From the NCBI GenBank assembly GCA_019637755.1, contig JAHBVC010000001.1, positions 1,020,480 to 1,084,479 on the forward strand: DNA of 64,000 nucleotides, written 5' to 3'. The notes under the pieces are model-generated. The model was not told the DNA's origin and did no database searches. It worked only from the letters and a program-made list of their open reading frames with translations. Of this stretch, positions 17,788-62,732 are shown piece by piece. This DNA is from Anaerolineales bacterium (GTDB lineage: Bacteria > Chloroflexota > Anaerolineae > Anaerolineales > UBA11579). The position numbers and the translations under genes are program-made. Positions within the stretch are counted from its first letter, which is position 1. Each line of letters opens with the position of its first letter.

Positions 17788-18735
17788 ATGGTTGCTCCCA
17801 CTCGAAATCGCATCCCGCTGGAAGATATCCAGTTGGCCCCCAAGCCTAGCCGCCGCCCGGATTGGATCCGCGTGCGCGCCCCAATGGGCGAGAGTTACGA
17901 GAACATCAAGCGCCTCATGCGCAGCAAAGCGCTGCACACCGTGTGCGAAGAAGCGATGTGCCCCAACATCGGGGAATGCTGGGGAGACGGCACCGCCACC
18001 TTCCTGATGCTGGGCGATGTCTGCACGCGCTCCTGTGGCTTCTGCGACATCAAGCGCGGCATGCCCAATGCGATGGACTGGGCCGAACCGCTGCGCGTGG
18101 CCCAGGCCGTCAAAGACATGGGCCTCAGCCACGCAGTCATCACCAGCGTCAACCGTGATGAGCGCGCCGATGGTGGCGCGCCGATCCTGGCCTTGGTGGT
18201 CAAGCGCATTCGCCAGATCCACCCCGGCTGCTCGATCGAATTGCTCATTCCTGACTTCAAGGGCAGCCCCGAGGCGCTCAAGATCGTGATGGATGCCCGC
18301 CCCGAGATCCTCAACCACAATGTGGAAACCGTGCCGCGCCTGTTCAAGAAGGTGCAGCCGCAAGACAATTACGCCTGGGCCGCGGCCACGCTGAGCAACG
18401 CCAAAAAGATGGACCCCGAAGTGCTGACCAAGAGCGGCATCATGCTCGGCCTGGGTGAGACCAACGAAGAGGTCAAAGCCGTCATGCGTGATCAGCGTGA
18501 GTGGGGCGTAGACATCCTGACCCTCGGCCAGTACCTGCAGCCCAGCAAGCAGCACCTGCCGATCGAGCGCTACGTCACTCCCGAAGAATTTGCCGATTTC
18601 AAAGCCTACGGCCTCAGCATTGGCTTCAAGTGGGTTGAAAGCGGCCCTCTGGTGCGCAGCAGCTACCACGCCGCCGATCAGGTGCGTGCGCTCAGCGCGG
18701 TGCACCGCAAGCTCTACGGCCAGGCCGCCGCCTAA
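17788..18735 (+). CDS. lipA: Lipoyl synthase
   Basis: 315 residues. Radical-SAM enzyme that inserts two sulfur atoms into protein-bound octanoyl groups. The auxiliary cluster cysteines are C53, C58 and C64, with R-S-S-Y near the C-terminus. The radical-SAM cluster is C79-x3-C83-x2-C86. All are in place, so the protein should be active. No lipB is nearby. The lipoyl-domain protein at 60678 is a candidate recipient of its product in this window. A bidirectional terminator follows. Confidence 0.98.
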
Positions 18736-57074: not shown

Positions 57075-58037
57075 ATGTCCAGCCCACGCGAACGTATCCT
57101 GGTGACGCTGCTGCGCGAGATCGCCGCGGAACAAGGCTATCGCTTCACTAGCTTCTCGCAAGATTGGATCCTGCGCCTGGCGCGCCAGGGCCAGGCGCGC
57201 CACGTGTTCGGCTTCAACTTTGAGATCAACTCGGCCACCGCGCTCTCGCTGGCCGGCGACAAGGCGGCCGTGGCCGCCCTGCTCGCCGATCAAGGCGTGG
57301 CGCACATCGAGCATCGCTTTTTCCTCAACCCCAGCCGGGCCGCCTATGTGCCCGATCACGGGCATTGGCCGGCCATCCTCGCCTACGCCGAAGCGCAGCA
57401 CTACCAACTGGTGGCCAAGCCCAACGACGGCACCGGCGGGCTGGGCGTGACGCATGTGCAAACCCAGGCGCAATTGGAACGCGCCGTGCAAACCATCTTC
57501 CAGCGCGGCCAATCGCTCAGCCTGTCACCCTTCTATCCCATTGATAACGAATTCCGCCTGGTGATGCTGGATGCCGAATGCCAACTGGCCTATAGCAAGC
57601 AACGCCCCGCGCTGCATGGCGATGGCCATAGCCACCTGCGCAGCTTGCTGGCGGCCGCCCTGCTCTCCGGGCAGATCAGCCAGGCCCAGGCCAGCGAGGC
57701 GCTGGAGCAGCACCAGGGCCAACTGGAGCGCGTGCTGGCCGCTGGCGAGTCGCTCACGATCAGCTGGAAGCACAACCTGGGTGCCGGGGCCACCCCGCGC
57801 CCATTGGCCGCCGGGCCGCAGTTGGCCGCGTTGGCGCGCCTGGCCCAGGCCGCCGCCCAGGCGATCAACATTCGCTTTGCCTCGGTCGATATTGTTGAGG
57901 TCAGCGGCGAGCTGCGCGTGCTGGAAGTGAATTCGGGCATCATGATGGAGCACTTCGCCCGCCACCGCCCCGAGAACCGCGCCCTAGCCAAGGCGATCTA
58001 TGCGCGGGCGGTGGAAAAGATGTTTGCCCCGCACTGA
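57075..58037 (+). CDS. ATP-grasp family protein
   Basis: 320 residues. L-V-A-K-P-N-D-G-T-G-G-L-G-V is the ATP-grasp nucleotide site. A magnesium-binding segment near the end is E-L-R-V-L-E-V-N-S-G-I-M-M-E. Such enzymes join a carboxylate to an amine or thiol through an acyl phosphate. The substrate is unknown; RimK-like and cyanophycin-synthetase-like proteins are the nearest types I recall. First of a five-gene cluster with a sugar transferase. Confidence 0.85.
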   Translation: MSSPRERILVTLLREIAAEQGYRFTSFSQDWILRLARQGQARHVFGFNFEINSATALSLAGDKAAVAALLADQGVAHIEHRFFLNPSRAAYVPDHGHWPAILAYAEAQHYQLVAKPNDGTGGLGVTHVQTQAQLERAVQTIFQRGQSLSLSPFYPIDNEFRLVMLDAECQLAYSKQRPALHGDGHSHLRSLLAAALLSGQISQAQASEALEQHQGQLERVLAAGESLTISWKHNLGAGATPRPLAAGPQLAALARLAQAAAQAINIRFASVDIVEVSGELRVLEVNSGIMMEHFARHRPENRALAKAIYARAVEKMFAPH

Positions 58038-58049: not shown

Positions 58050-58691
58050 GTGCCCCCGCGTCTCACCATTCCGCGTAGCAAGCGCCTGCTCGATCTGGCC
58101 CTGGCCATATTCGGCGGCATCCTGCTGCTGCCGCTGATCCTGCTGCTGGCGCTGCTGGTGCGCCTGTTCCTCGGCCACCCGGTACTCTTCCGCCAGCCGC
58201 GCCCGGGCATCGGCGGCCTGCCCTTCACGCTCTACAAGTTTCGCACGATGCGCGAGGCCAGCGGCCCCGACGGGCAACCGCTGCCCGATGCCCAGCGCCT
58301 CACCGGCTTTGGGCGCCTGCTGCGCGCCACCAGCCTGGATGAGCTGCCCGAGCTGTGGAACGTGCTGCGCGGCGAAATGAGCCTGGTGGGGCCGCGCCCC
58401 TTGCTGATGCGCTACCTCGATCGCTACACCCCGCAGCAGTTCCGCCGCCACCTCACCTTGCCGGGCATCACCGGCTGGGCGCAGATCAACGGGCGCAACA
58501 ATGTTTCCTGGGAAGATAAGTTCGCCCTGGATGTTTGGTATGTAGACCATTGGTCCTTGTGGCTGGATATAAAGATCCTGCTGCTTACCCCGTTCAAAGT
58601 GCTGCGCCGCGAAGGTATCAACCAGCCCGGCAACGCCACCGCCATGGAGTTCATGGGCAGCTCCGCCGCCGAAAAGCACCCGCCGTTATAA
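58050..58691 (+). CDS. Initiating sugar-phosphate transferase (PglC/WbaP-like)
   Basis: 213 residues, the short monotopic form. Hydrophobic segment at about 13-42 (the re-entrant helix). Then P-G-I-G-G, L-Y-K-F-R-T-M, the catalytic D-E in S-L-D-E-L-P-E-L-W-N-V-L-R-G, and S-L-V-G-P-R-P. It moves a phospho-sugar from a UDP-sugar to undecaprenyl phosphate, the first step of glycan assembly. C. jejuni PglC acts next to PglD; here a PglD-like protein is encoded three genes later. Confidence 0.93.
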   Translation: MPPRLTIPRSKRLLDLALAIFGGILLLPLILLLALLVRLFLGHPVLFRQPRPGIGGLPFTLYKFRTMREASGPDGQPLPDAQRLTGFGRLLRATSLDELPELWNVLRGEMSLVGPRPLLMRYLDRYTPQQFRRHLTLPGITGWAQINGRNNVSWEDKFALDVWYVDHWSLWLDIKILLLTPFKVLRREGINQPGNATAMEFMGSSAAEKHPPL

Positions 58692-58692
58692 T
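58687..58692 (+). promoter_or_regulatory. -10 box of the E1 alpha gene (leaderless type)
   Basis: TATAAT overlapping the preceding stop codon, seven bases, then the ATG at 58700. Confidence 0.5.
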
Positions 58693-58699
58693 GCGCGCC

Positions 58700-59614
58700 A
58701 TGCCTACCCACGCCGCGCTGTACCGGCAGCTCTACACCATTCGCCGTTTTGAAGAAACATTGTTGGAAGCCTTCCCCAGCGGCGCATTCTACGGCACTAC
58801 CCATACCTACATCGGGCAGGAGGCCAACGCCGTGGGCGTATTAGCCCACCTGCAGCCCGGCGATATCGTCTTCAGCAATCACCGCTGCCACGGCCACTTC
58901 CTCGCCTATGGCGGCGAGCCCCACGGCTTGTTTGCCGAGCTAATGGGCAAGGCCACCGGGGTGTGCGCCGGCCTGGGCGGCTCGCAGCACCTGCATTGGA
59001 AGGATTTCTATTCCAACGGAGTGCTGGGCAGCACCGCGCCGATTGCGGTGGGCACTGCCCTGGCCGAAAAAGAAAAGGGCAGCCCGGCGATCTGTGTCCT
59101 CTTCCTGGGCGATGGCGCCATGGGCGAAGGCGTAGTCTACGAGAGCCTCAACCTGGCGGCGCTGTGGGGTGCGCCGGTCTTGTTCGTGGTGGAGAACAAT
59201 CACATCGCCCAAACTACGCCCACTGAGCTGGCGCTGGCCGGCAGCCTGGCAGCACGCTTTGCCGCCTTTGGTATCCCGGTCAACGAGCTGGATAGCAACG
59301 ATGTCGATGTGATCTATGCCGCCGCCGCCAGCGAATTTGCCGCATTGCGGCACACTGCTGCCCCGCGGGCGTTGATCCTCAACACCACGCGCTTCGGGCC
59401 GCATTCCAAAGGTGACGATACGCGCGATCCGGCGCTGGTGGCCAGTTGGCGCGCCACGCGTGACCCGCTGACCCTGCAAGCGGCGCGCCTGGAGCCCGCC
59501 GCCCGCCAGGCACTCGAAAGCGCCGTCGATGCGGAGATCGCGCGTGCCTATGCCCAGGCCGAAGCCGACCCGTTACCTAGCCTCCCCGCGCTCACACAGG
59601 CAGGCCGCCAATGA
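58700..59614 (+). CDS. 2-oxo-acid dehydrogenase E1 subunit alpha (TPP-dependent)
   Basis: 304 residues. The thiamine diphosphate motif G-D-G-A-M-G-E-G ends in V-V-E-N-N about 27 residues later. H-R-C-H-G-H and G-G-S-Q-H-L are usual for PDH/acetoin-type E1 alpha. It decarboxylates a 2-oxo acid and, with E1 beta, hands the acyl group to a lipoyl arm. The start at 58700 is chosen from the TATAAT box; an ATG at 58691 is also in frame. The context is a glycan cluster, not a PDH operon. Confidence 0.88.
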   Translation: MPTHAALYRQLYTIRRFEETLLEAFPSGAFYGTTHTYIGQEANAVGVLAHLQPGDIVFSNHRCHGHFLAYGGEPHGLFAELMGKATGVCAGLGGSQHLHWKDFYSNGVLGSTAPIAVGTALAEKEKGSPAICVLFLGDGAMGEGVVYESLNLAALWGAPVLFVVENNHIAQTTPTELALAGSLAARFAAFGIPVNELDSNDVDVIYAAAASEFAALRHTAAPRALILNTTRFGPHSKGDDTRDPALVASWRATRDPLTLQAARLEPAARQALESAVDAEIARAYAQAEADPLPSLPALTQAGRQ

Positions 59615-59654
59615 TCTGCCAGGCGCAGCATTCACGCTTTACGGGCATGCGGCG

Positions 59655-60671
59655 ATGACTAGCGTACTCGAAGCGCTTACCCGCGGCTTGCATGCCGCCT
59701 TTGCCCAGGATGGGCGCGTCTACCTGATCGGCGAAGATCTGCTCGATCCCTATGGGGGCGCGTTCAAGGTCAGCCGCGGGCTTTCCAGCCAATACCCCGG
59801 GCGCGTGTGGAGCAGCCCAGTCTCTGAGGCCGCCATCACCGGCGTGGCCGCCGGTATGGCGCTGCGCGGTCTGCGCCCCGTGGTGGAGCTGATGTTCGGT
59901 GATTTCAGTACGCTAATAGCCGACCAACTGATCAACAGCATCACCAAGTTCCCGGCCATGTTCAACGGCACGGTGCGCGTGCCGATCGTCATCCGCACGC
60001 CGATGGGCGGGCGCCGTGGCTACGGTCCAACGCACAGCCAAACCCTGGAGAAACTTTATCTGGGCGTGCCCGGGCTGCGGGTGTTGGCGCCCAACACGCT
60101 CAGTGATCCGGGCGAGTTGTTGCGCCGCGCCATCCTCGAGCAGGACGATCCAGTTTTCTTCGTCGAAAACAAAGTTTTGTATCCCAAGCCCGTGCTGGAC
60201 GCGCAAACCCTGCAGGATTTTGAGATCGAGCAGACGCAGGGCGAGTTTGCCCCGGTGCACACCCTGCGCCTCAAAGGCGCCCCGCCCCCTACGCTGACGT
60301 TGAGCGCCTACGGCTATATGGCTGAGCTGGCCCGCGAAGCGCTGACCCGCCTGGCCTTCGAGCACGAGATTTTCGCCGAGTTGGTGGTGCCTACGCAGTT
60401 GGCGCCGCTGCCAGCGGGCGGCGGCCTGGAGCCGGCCTTGGCCGCCGCGCTGCAACGCAGCGGCCGCCTGCTCACGATCGAAGAGGGCACCTATTCGCTT
60501 GGCTGGGGCGCGGAGCAACTGGCACGTGCCAGCCAAGCGCTGGGGCCGCGGCTACTGGCCGCCCGCCGTCTGGCAGCGCACGAAGCGCCCATTCCGGCGG
60601 TGCGTGCGCTGGAAGAGGCGGCCCTGCCCTCCGTGGCAGACATCCTCCGCACCGCGCGGGAAATGGTATAA
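59655..60671 (+). CDS. 2-oxo-acid dehydrogenase E1 subunit beta
   Basis: 338 residues. P-V-S-E-A-A-I-T-G-V-A-A-G-M-A-L-R-G-L-R-P-V contains the E1 beta Glu that activates thiamine. R-G-Y-G-P-T-H-S-Q-T-L-E and A-P-N-T-L-S-D are also conserved. The C-terminal domain has the usual E1 beta/transketolase-C layout. The start is the first ATG that gives family-like sequence; the gap to E1 alpha is 40 bases. Substrate not deducible by eye. Confidence 0.92.
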   Translation: MTSVLEALTRGLHAAFAQDGRVYLIGEDLLDPYGGAFKVSRGLSSQYPGRVWSSPVSEAAITGVAAGMALRGLRPVVELMFGDFSTLIADQLINSITKFPAMFNGTVRVPIVIRTPMGGRRGYGPTHSQTLEKLYLGVPGLRVLAPNTLSDPGELLRRAILEQDDPVFFVENKVLYPKPVLDAQTLQDFEIEQTQGEFAPVHTLRLKGAPPPTLTLSAYGYMAELAREALTRLAFEHEIFAELVVPTQLAPLPAGGGLEPALAAALQRSGRLLTIEEGTYSLGWGAEQLARASQALGPRLLAARRLAAHEAPIPAVRALEEAALPSVADILRTAREMV

Positions 60672-60677
60672 AGCCTC

Positions 60678-61775
60678 ATGGCTGATGCCCATCTCATCCG
60701 GGTTCCCCTGATCAACCCCAACGAAACCGAAGCGCGGCTGGTGAACCTGGCCGTGAGCAACGGCGCTGAGGTTGCCAAAGGCGATGTACTCGCCACCCTC
60801 GAAACCACCAAATCCACCTTCGAGCTGCTCGCCGAGGCGCAAGGCTTTGTGGCCGGCTTGCAAGCCCGCCAGGGCCAGATGCTGGCCGCTGGGCAAGTCT
60901 TCCTGTACATCGCCCCCAGCCCCGATTGGCAGCCGCCTGCCGCCAGCCCGGCCACCGCAGAAAGCGGCGCACTGCCCGATGGCCTGCGCATTACCCAGCC
61001 CGCTTTGCAATTAGCCCAGCAACACAACATCCCGCTGGCGAGCCTGCCCATCGGCCCAATCGTTACAGAAGCGTTGATTTCGAAGCTGGCGGCCCAACAA
61101 GCCGGCGCCCGCGCCATCACCGTCCCGGAGGCGGCCAAGCTGCCCAACGCGGTCATCGTATACGGCGGCGGCGGCCACGGCAAAGCAGTGATCGACCTCT
61201 TGCGCGCCGCGGGTGGCTACACACTGGCCGGCGTGATCGACGACAGCCGCCAGCCGGGCGAGCTAGTGTTGGATGCCGCCGTTATCGCTGGCGAGGCAGC
61301 CCTGGCGCCACTGCACGCCGCCGGCTGCCGCCTGGCGCTGAATGCGGTGGGCGGCATCGGCGCAATGAGCAGCCGCATCGCCGTATTTGAGCGCCTCGAG
61401 GCGGCCGGCTTTGAGCTGCCCAGCCTGATCCATCCTAGCGCCGTGGTGGAGCCCAGTGCGCAACTGGCCGCCGGGGTACACGTCTTTCCGCACGCGTACA
61501 TCGGCTCGGACGCGCGTATCGGTCAAGGCGCCATCATCAATACCGGCGCCATCGTTTCGCACGATTGTGAGCTAGCCGAATACACCAATCTTTCGCCTGG
61601 CAGCATTCTGGCCGGCAACGTGCGCGTGGGCCGCGGCACGCTGGTGGGCATGGGCGTTACCGTCAATCTGGGCGTGCGCATCGGCAGCCTGGCGCGCATC
61701 GGCAACGGCGCCACGGTGAAAGATGACGTGCCGGATGGCGGCGTGGTGCGTGCCGGCGCGGTGTGGCCCAGCTAG
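60678..61775 (+). CDS. Lipoyl domain - E3-binding-like segment - PglD/NeuD sugar acyltransferase fusion
   Basis: 365 residues. Residues 1-80 form a lipoyl domain; K45 in L-E-T-T-K-S-T is the lipoylation site. Residues 103-138 (T-Q-P-A-L-Q-L-A-Q-Q-H and I-V-T-E-A-L-I-S-K-L) look like the peripheral-subunit-binding domain of E2 proteins. From 158 on it is a PglD/NeuD protein: Y-G-G-G-G-H-G-K (162-169), then left-handed beta-helix repeats with a His (H295 in S-H-D-C) at the place of the PglD catalytic base. An E2 CAT domain is missing. Six bases after E1 beta. No E3 gene is nearby. Confidence 0.82.
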   Translation: MADAHLIRVPLINPNETEARLVNLAVSNGAEVAKGDVLATLETTKSTFELLAEAQGFVAGLQARQGQMLAAGQVFLYIAPSPDWQPPAASPATAESGALPDGLRITQPALQLAQQHNIPLASLPIGPIVTEALISKLAAQQAGARAITVPEAAKLPNAVIVYGGGGHGKAVIDLLRAAGGYTLAGVIDDSRQPGELVLDAAVIAGEAALAPLHAAGCRLALNAVGGIGAMSSRIAVFERLEAAGFELPSLIHPSAVVEPSAQLAAGVHVFPHAYIGSDARIGQGAIINTGAIVSHDCELAEYTNLSPGSILAGNVRVGRGTLVGMGVTVNLGVRIGSLARIGNGATVKDDVPDGGVVRAGAVWPS

Positions 61776-61838: not shown

Positions 61839-62732
61839 ATGGCGGCAGACAAACCGGATCGCAAGAAAGGCACGCGCAGCCGCGCCTTTGGCTCCTCCAG
61901 TCGCGAAAATCACGATGCCAGCAGTTTCTACAATAGCTCGTTGTATGCCTCGCTGCCGGTAGAGAGCACAGCCGCCTATACTCAAGCCGAACTGCCCGCC
62001 GAGCTACACAACCGTATTCTTAACCACAGCAGTGAAGCGATGCACGAGCTACCTGATAATAGCGTGCATCTGATGGTGACCTCACCGCCCTACAACGCCG
62101 GCAAGGAATATGATCTTGACCTGGACCTGGGCGAATACCTGGCCTTGCTGCGGCGCGTGTGGGCTGAGACCCTGCGCGTGCTGGTGCCTGGCGGGCGCGC
62201 CTGCATCAACGTGGCCAATTTGGGCCGCAAGCCCTACCTGCCGCTGCACGCCTTCATCATCAACGACATGCTTTCGCTGGGCTACCTGATGCGCGGCGAG
62301 ATCATCTGGGATAAGGCCAGCTCGGCCGGCGGTTCGACGGCCTGGGGCTCCTGGCGCAGCGCCAGCAACCCCACGCTGCGCGATGTGCACGAATACATCC
62401 TCGTGTTCAGCAAGCAGCGCTTCGGCCGCCCAGCACCTGCGGGCAGCAAGCGCTACAGCGTGCCGCGCGATGACTTCCTGCAGAACACGAAGAGCGTGTG
62501 GAGCTTCCCCACGGTGTCGGCGCGCAAGATCGGCCATCCGGCGCCCTTTCCGTTGGAGCTGCCGCGCCGCCTGATCGAGCTATACACCTTCCCCGGCGAA
62601 GTGGTGCTGGATCCTTTTATGGGCAGCGGCACTACGGCGCTGGCCGCCCAAACTATGCAGCGCGTCTACCTAGGCTACGAGCTGGACAAAAAGTACATTC
62701 ACCTTGCCAATCAACGTCTCGAGGGAAAATAA
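61839..62732 (+). CDS. DNA methyltransferase (N4-cytosine/N6-adenine type, beta class)
   Basis: 297 residues. Catalytic motif IV T-S-P-P-Y-N (about residue 81) comes before the SAM motif I D-P-F-M-G-S-G-T-T (near 256), the beta order. S-P-P-Y favours N4-cytosine, though N6-adenine is possible. A charged N-terminal tail of about 40 residues is extra. No restriction endonuclease is in the window on either side, so it may be solitary. The O-methyltransferase ATG follows the stop directly. Confidence 0.9.
   Translation: MAADKPDRKKGTRSRAFGSSSRENHDASSFYNSSLYASLPVESTAAYTQAELPAELHNRILNHSSEAMHELPDNSVHLMVTSPPYNAGKEYDLDLDLGEYLALLRRVWAETLRVLVPGGRACINVANLGRKPYLPLHAFIINDMLSLGYLMRGEIIWDKASSAGGSTAWGSWRSASNPTLRDVHEYILVFSKQRFGRPAPAGSKRYSVPRDDFLQNTKSVWSFPTVSARKIGHPAPFPLELPRRLIELYTFPGEVVLDPFMGSGTTALAAQTMQRVYLGYELDKKYIHLANQRLEGK

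Follow-up and report, generated by a model that had tools for sequence, protein, structure and literature searches.

Lipoyl-fused PglD/NeuD acyltransferases encoded beside E1 genes in Anaerolineales: a candidate system for coenzyme A-independent acylation of nucleotide amino sugars

An operon in an Anaerolineales genome (GCA_019637755.1) places the genes for both subunits of a thiamine diphosphate (ThDP)-dependent E1 enzyme next to a gene whose product joins a lipoyl domain to a PglD/NeuD-type sugar acyltransferase. The operon lies in the window analyzed here, a whole stretch of 64,000 nucleotides (C1:1020480-1084479, contig JAHBVC010000001.1) from a genome of 2.26 Mb. We propose, with a probability of about 0.6, that the three proteins form a machine for the coenzyme A (CoA)-independent N-acylation of a nucleotide 4-amino sugar. 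A small donor would give up a two-carbon unit to E1 alpha and beta, which would oxidize it and load it onto the lipoyl group predicted at Lys45 of the fusion protein; the putative binding domain of the fusion would hold E1 and/or the E3 of the cell, and E3 would reoxidize the dihydrolipoyl group. The lipoyl arm would reach into the site between the subunits of the PglD/NeuD trimer. There, His295 may deprotonate the 4-amino group of the nucleotide sugar so that the acyl group could be transferred to it, after which PglC would move the sugar phosphate to undecaprenyl phosphate. This catalytic scheme is entirely our reading of the sequences.

The fusion protein matches PF00364 (residues 7 to 77), PF17836 (residues 159 to 240), and PF00132, and it exceeds the cutoff of the NeuD_NnaD profile TIGR03570 (174.5 versus 160.8 bits). 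Lys45 (codon 60810-60812) lies within an ETTK sequence, which is a lipoyl and not a biotin motif. His295 (codon 61560-61562) aligns with PerB His141, the position mutated in structures 4eaa and 4eab, and corresponds to PglD His125, while Asp188 and Asp189 correspond to PglD Asp35 and Asp36. According to PMC8040287, these PglD residues contact the uridine diphosphate (UDP)-sugar, with the Asp pair binding uridine. The AlphaFold2 model, based on 61 natural sequences, shows a lipoyl domain of high confidence, then, after a linker, a small domain of two helices and, past another linker, a PglD-like domain whose beta-helix part is of lower predicted local distance difference test score (pLDDT, about 60 to 82). 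VIA-align placed residues 1 to 89 on the lipoyl domains of pyruvate dehydrogenase (PDH) E2 (Z 13) and residues 148 to 365 on PerB (Z 22.5). A Pfam search found no catalytic acyltransferase (CAT) domain, PF00198, in the fusion, versus its presence in all three canonical E2s of the genome. A first-pass annotation, made from the DNA sequence alone, had described the locus as E1 alpha, E1 beta, and a lipoyl-PglD/NeuD fusion with Lys45 and His295 in which the E2 catalytic core is replaced, and the Pfam, NCBIfam, and structural comparisons bear this out.

The same annotation had likened the segment between the two linkers to an E3/E1-binding domain. Pfam proved too weak a basis for this call, since E3_binding was matched by 1 of 24 members (E value, 0.035) and by a divergent fusion (L235; E value, 0.003), below the cutoff, and we replaced it with a fold search. 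The segment folds well (pLDDT of about 87 to 93 in the full model), and when folded alone it retrieved eight PDB chains in Foldseek, all eight of them peripheral subunit-binding domains, with the weak E values (0.4 to 6) of a query of only 49 residues.

The operon consists of the PglC, E1 alpha, E1 beta, and fusion genes, in this order and all on the + strand. E1 alpha had been annotated from position 58700, but the ATG at 58691 is the more likely start, as it overlaps the PglC stop codon (58689-58691); E1 beta starts at 59655. With gaps of 40 bases between the E1 genes and 6 bases between E1 beta and the fusion, the operon has no room for an acyl carrier protein (ACP) gene or an additional acyltransferase.

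The conservation of this arrangement is far beyond chance. In a survey of 400 sampled Anaerolineales genomes, about 116 had a match that begins in the lipoyl domain and reaches the end of the acyltransferase, as counted from the rows listed and with the window's own genome included. The counts of fusion loci that follow come from an independent genome collection, which gave 130 relatives, 80 of which were retained. E1 beta lies directly upstream of the fusion in 79 of these 80 (median gap of 29 bases between aligned ends), so the adjacency asked about at first pass holds well outside the window. Both E1 genes adjoin the fusion in 73 loci, and at least four of the 6 loci that lack only E1 alpha end at a contig boundary. 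Lys45 and Arg104 are each kept in 80/80 fusions, Asp188/Asp189 in 79/79, and His295 in 76/77; His167 is likewise conserved, and ETTK and the binding-domain motif are retained in all 23 further E1-linked loci.

Carriers of the fusion are nearly all Anaerolineales, and the window's relatives in the named collection are metagenome-assembled genomes of this order (Chloroflexota). One metagenome-assembled genome named Acidimicrobiia (L130) holds the Anaerolineales operon, which may reflect a binning error or a transfer. Two more families of the class, outside the order, have divergent loci with E1 alpha, E1 beta, and a lipoyl, binding domain, and NeuD protein (28% identity; E value, 3e-31), namely, L235, L233, and L232, the last of which is truncated. 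A search of a plasmid collection found no full-length fusions, and none were found on viral contigs with the divergent L235 fusion as the query. In one locus (L069:6247-8409), E1 alpha and E1 beta form a single continuous open frame, a natural fusion.

The lipoyl lysine and the E1 genes are also lost together in nearly all cases. An orthologous acyltransferase without the lipoyl lysine is encoded at 17 loci, none of which has an E1 neighbor, and these orthologs are 47 to 60% identical to the acyltransferase domain of the window. In one family, the operon is flanked by a DNA-glycosylase gene and a bactofilin-like gene; in other genomes, that chromosomal slot contains the acyltransferase domain alone, with neither E1 nor the lipoyl lysine. 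A bactofilin-like gene directly 3' of the NeuD or lipoyl-NeuD gene was seen in L065 to L068, L072, L075, L076, L082, and L088, with or without E1. Genomes of the E1-less group have no specific E1 beta, their full-length matches being at most 40% identical, at the level of canonical E1s; the E1 beta matches of E1-bearing genomes are 55 to 86% identical. Two proteins (L072:9357-10298 and L079:8684-9715), both from genomes without a specific E1, retain a relic lipoyl domain with ESRR or ESRH in place of ETTK but have their binding domain deleted. In the acyltransferase tree, a quick tree with several open forks, an E1-linked clade branches at the base and the E1-less sequences fall within, which would make the loss of E1 secondary and later than the origin of the fusion. 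In nearly all cases, the lipoyl lysine and E1 thus appear to behave as one functional unit.

The genes around the fusion point to a surface glycan. The identity of the PglC-like gene is certain (PF02397, 209 bits), and a PglC gene is found within 6 kb of the fusion in 38/80 loci. In several genomes the fusion is followed by a DegT aminotransferase whose closest kin are the 4-aminotransferases PseC, LegC, and perosamine synthetase. Given these PglC and PseC-like neighbors, the acceptor is likely a nucleotide 4-amino-4,6-dideoxy sugar. The glycan cluster proposed at first pass also included an ATP-grasp enzyme; this part did not stand, as the match is weak and the gene, found with the operon in no family but the window's own (7/80 loci), was ruled out as a core component. 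Cofactor supply is accounted for by LipB and E3 genes elsewhere in the genome, both over their cutoffs, and by LipA inside the window.

The kinship of the E1 subunits bears on which acyl group is carried. Trees of E1 alpha and E1 beta both join the window E1s to those of nonribosomal peptide synthetase (NRPS) clusters, namely, RenH and its relatives, with support of 100/99 and 100/100 (99/96 and 100/100 once the divergent Anaerolineae loci are added), and both separate them from the two canonical E1s of the genome and from acetoin-type E1s. We rejected the reading as a plain PDH, as the E1s fall outside the canonical clade in both trees. The lipoyl start motif PxxNxN[ED] is common to the window family and most of the NRPS-cluster relatives. 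Related E1 loci include RenH/RenI of the renieramycin cluster, an ACP-E1a-E1b-E2 set adjoining an NRPS gene in Streptomyces, and a Paenibacillus locus with two ACP genes and an E2; the E2s of these relatives consist of a lipoyl domain and a 2-oxoacid_dh CAT domain. Among the E1 alpha matches from plasmids is one of Nonomuraea (51% over 239 residues), whose relatives sit in natural-product clusters. An uncharacterized locus of Nonomuraea gerenzanensis (L204:9944-12959) has QncN/QncL-like E1-E1-lipoyl-CAT genes after a thioester-reductase-like gene.

By this analogy, the window E1s are probably of the NapB/QncN type, in which a ketose phosphate supplies a two-carbon unit that is passed to an ACP. 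In the literature, QncN/L/M and SclQ1-4 are described as making a C2-glycolicacyl unit and attaching it (PMC6335953), and DinU/DinS, which are NapB/D homologs, as moving the hydroxyethyl unit of xylulose-5-phosphate onto an ACP (PMC7570522). The kinship of the E1s with such systems makes a glycolyl group, from a ketose phosphate, more likely than an acetyl group from pyruvate. A bolder reading, which we put at somewhat below even odds, is a new route to N-glycolyl amino sugars in which ketose-phosphate-derived glycolyl would be carried on the lipoyl arm into the PglD/NeuD site, with no glycolyl-CoA and no hydroxylase, and which would be the usual means by which a large share of the Anaerolineales decorate a surface glycan. 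Alternatively, the same machine could use pyruvate, with acetyl-lipoyl giving an N-acetyl sugar and independence from acetyl-CoA as the gain. The closest solved E1 structures are indeed human PDH E1 alpha and beta, and the best NCBIfam match is PDH_E1_alph_y, at 227 bits, far under its cutoff of 394. Yet two canonical E1a-E1b-E2 operons plus an additional E2-E3 pair are encoded in the genome, so acetyl-CoA should be available; together with the position of the E1s in the trees, this makes the pyruvate version rather unlikely. With acetyl-CoA available, it would be odd to have a second, dedicated route to acetyl but not to have one to an unusual acyl group such as glycolyl, although this is an argument and not evidence. 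The first-pass scheme of 2-oxo acid to acyl-lipoyl to sugar therefore needs revision at its first step: the conserved operon, the joint losses, the absence of CAT, and the glycan context agree with it, but the trees indicate that the E1 is not a general 2-oxo-acid dehydrogenase E1, and the donor may be a ketose phosphate.

A different possibility, to which we give slightly less weight than to the use of pyruvate, is that the acyltransferase uses acyl-CoA, with the lipoyl domain and E1 serving regulation or another acceptor and the fusion only tethering neighbors. Solved NeuD/PglD relatives bind CoA, and the E1-less orthologs in the same chromosomal slot presumably use it. In addition, a lipoyl-NeuD fusion from another Chloroflexota class (L243:2913-4122) keeps a GVPAK tail and has no visible binding domain; it adjoins PglC and a Gfo/Idh gene, with no E1 on its short, 7.5-kb contig. 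Against this, almost every locus keeps or loses Lys45, the binding domain, and E1 jointly, and the operon has no space for another acyltransferase or an ACP gene. The CoA-type tail GxPA[KRTS], present in 22/28 NeuDs of other clades, is missing from 77/77 fusions and from all 17 E1-less clade members; the window fusion ends in AGAVWPS. As the GxPA[KR] form is usual in the NeuD/PglD family but not strictly defining, and as the E1-less relatives share its absence, we rejected the missing tail as proof of a lipoyl donor, though it fits a non-CoA donor. According to PMC8040287, the Asn212-Pro213 peptide of the last turn in a CoA-bound relative is cis, and it is trans without CoA; from its position, this bond may belong to the GxPA motif.

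Several points weigh against the lipoyl-to-sugar machine or its glycolyl version. The glycolyl group is something we infer, and the E1 could still use pyruvate; NapB, QncN, and SclQ2 were placed in the NRPS E1 group through gene content and RenH, not through their own sequences. The E1-less members, which necessarily use another donor, share the AGxxW tail. The first pass had suggested a look for aminotransferase genes in neighboring clusters; several genomes have the PseC-like DegT gene there, but the window cluster itself has no 4-aminotransferase, its likely ortholog being located elsewhere (C1:1213253). Finally, one fusion (L107:6001-7107; L057 is the same contig) has Gln at the His295 position and keeps the lipoyl lysine in a genome without a specific E1. 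It looks like a decaying or repurposed copy.

Two further explanations fare poorly. Both E2 cores and PglD form trimers that have their catalytic His where the subunits meet, and E1 and the lipoyl domain could produce free acyl-CoA if the beta-helix domain served as an E2 core, but the conserved sugar-nucleotide-binding residues (Asp188, Asp189, and His167) along with His295, the absent CoA tail, and the PglC and sugar aminotransferase neighbors render this very improbable. Just as far-fetched is an E1 pair that works as a carboligase or other ThDP enzyme with the lipoyl domain only as oxidant: an E1 pair of the same clade without an adjoining lipoyl-acyltransferase gene was seen once (L234:1035-3071, with HypE-like and SorC-like neighbors), but nearly all loci have the lipoyl-acyltransferase in the same operon, and the nearest E1 relatives adjoin a lipoyl-E2 gene.

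Known NeuD/PglD enzymes draw their acyl groups from acyl-CoA; a lipoyl-tethered donor, if true, would be a second mechanism in bacterial glycan biosynthesis, and the E2 catalytic core would be exchangeable for an unrelated trimeric acyltransferase. The proposal also leads to a testable prediction for the sugars on the surface of a large and mostly uncultivated group of bacteria, in which genomes that miss E1 and the lipoyl lysine but retain the acyltransferase offer a natural control for the donor question. Table 1 lists the features of the locus. Directly 3' of the operon is an N6/N4 DNA methyltransferase gene (61839-62732), whose position is kept in the window's family; no restriction gene was seen adjoining it.

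Table 1. Coordinates of the operon, its neighbors, and the domains of the fusion protein within the window
Feature	Position	Strand	Basis
ATP-grasp-like protein (RimK/cyanophycin-synthetase-like)	57075..58037	+	Weak matches below curated cutoffs
PglC-type phosphoglycosyl transferase (Bac_transf)	58050..58691	+	PF02397, 208.9 bits
E1 alpha subunit, ThDP-binding half, NRPS-cluster/QncN-like subfamily	58691..59614	+	PF00676, 184 bits; trees
E1 beta subunit, transketolase pyrimidine and C-terminal domains	59655..60671	+	PF02779, PF02780; trees
Fusion of lipoyl domain, probable subunit-binding domain, and PglD/NeuD sugar N-acyltransferase (predicted), 365 residues	60678..61775	+	
Lipoyl domain, residues 7-81	60696..60920	+	PF00364; VIA-align Z 13
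Peripheral subunit-binding-domain fold, residues 101-142	60978..61103	+	Models; Foldseek
PglD N-terminal nucleotide-sugar-binding domain	61146..61403	+	PF17836; D188, D189, H167 conserved
Left-handed beta-helix acyltransferase domain	61422..61772	+	Z 22.5 to PerB 4eaa/4eab; tail AGAVWPS
Lipoyl synthase LipA, distant in the window	17788..18735	+	TIGR00510, 377.9 bits, over cutoff

Several known systems share parts of this design. Canonical pyruvate and branched-chain dehydrogenase complexes have the E1, the lipoyl domain, and probably the subunit-binding domain in common with the window operon, which, unlike them, has no CAT domain, no adjoining E3 gene, and an E1 outside the canonical clade. 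In acetoin dehydrogenase with an AcoC-type E2 (Rhizobium, L203), E1a and E1b are likewise followed by a lipoyl protein with a non-CAT core, but this core is an alpha/beta hydrolase, the context looks catabolic, and the E1s group with canonical ones. PglD, NeuD, and PerB resemble the window protein in their N-terminal nucleotide-sugar domain, beta-helix, catalytic His, and uridine-binding Asp pair, whereas the window protein also carries a lipoyl domain and a probable subunit-binding domain, is linked to E1 genes, and is devoid of the GxPA[KR] tail. The open literature that we searched yielded nothing relevant on fusions of a lipoyl domain with NeuD/PglD (hexapeptide, beta-helix) proteins. The first-pass annotation had known of no comparable system, which is correct only in part. 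NapB/NapD, QncN/QncL, SclQ2-4, and DinU/DinS also comprise E1 alpha, E1 beta, and a lipoyl protein and, as described in PMC6335953 and PMC7570522, pass the group from lipoyl to a non-CoA acceptor; NRPS-cluster E1s fall in the same clade as those of the window, and the lipoyl start NxN[ED] is shared. These loading systems have a 2-oxoacid_dh-type CAT domain after the lipoyl domain and use an ACP as the acceptor, whereas the window fusion has PglD/NeuD in place of CAT. Lipoyl-to-ACP transfer is thus a precedent for transfer that bypasses CoA; the novelty lies in the exchanged catalytic core and, on our reading, in a sugar as the acceptor.

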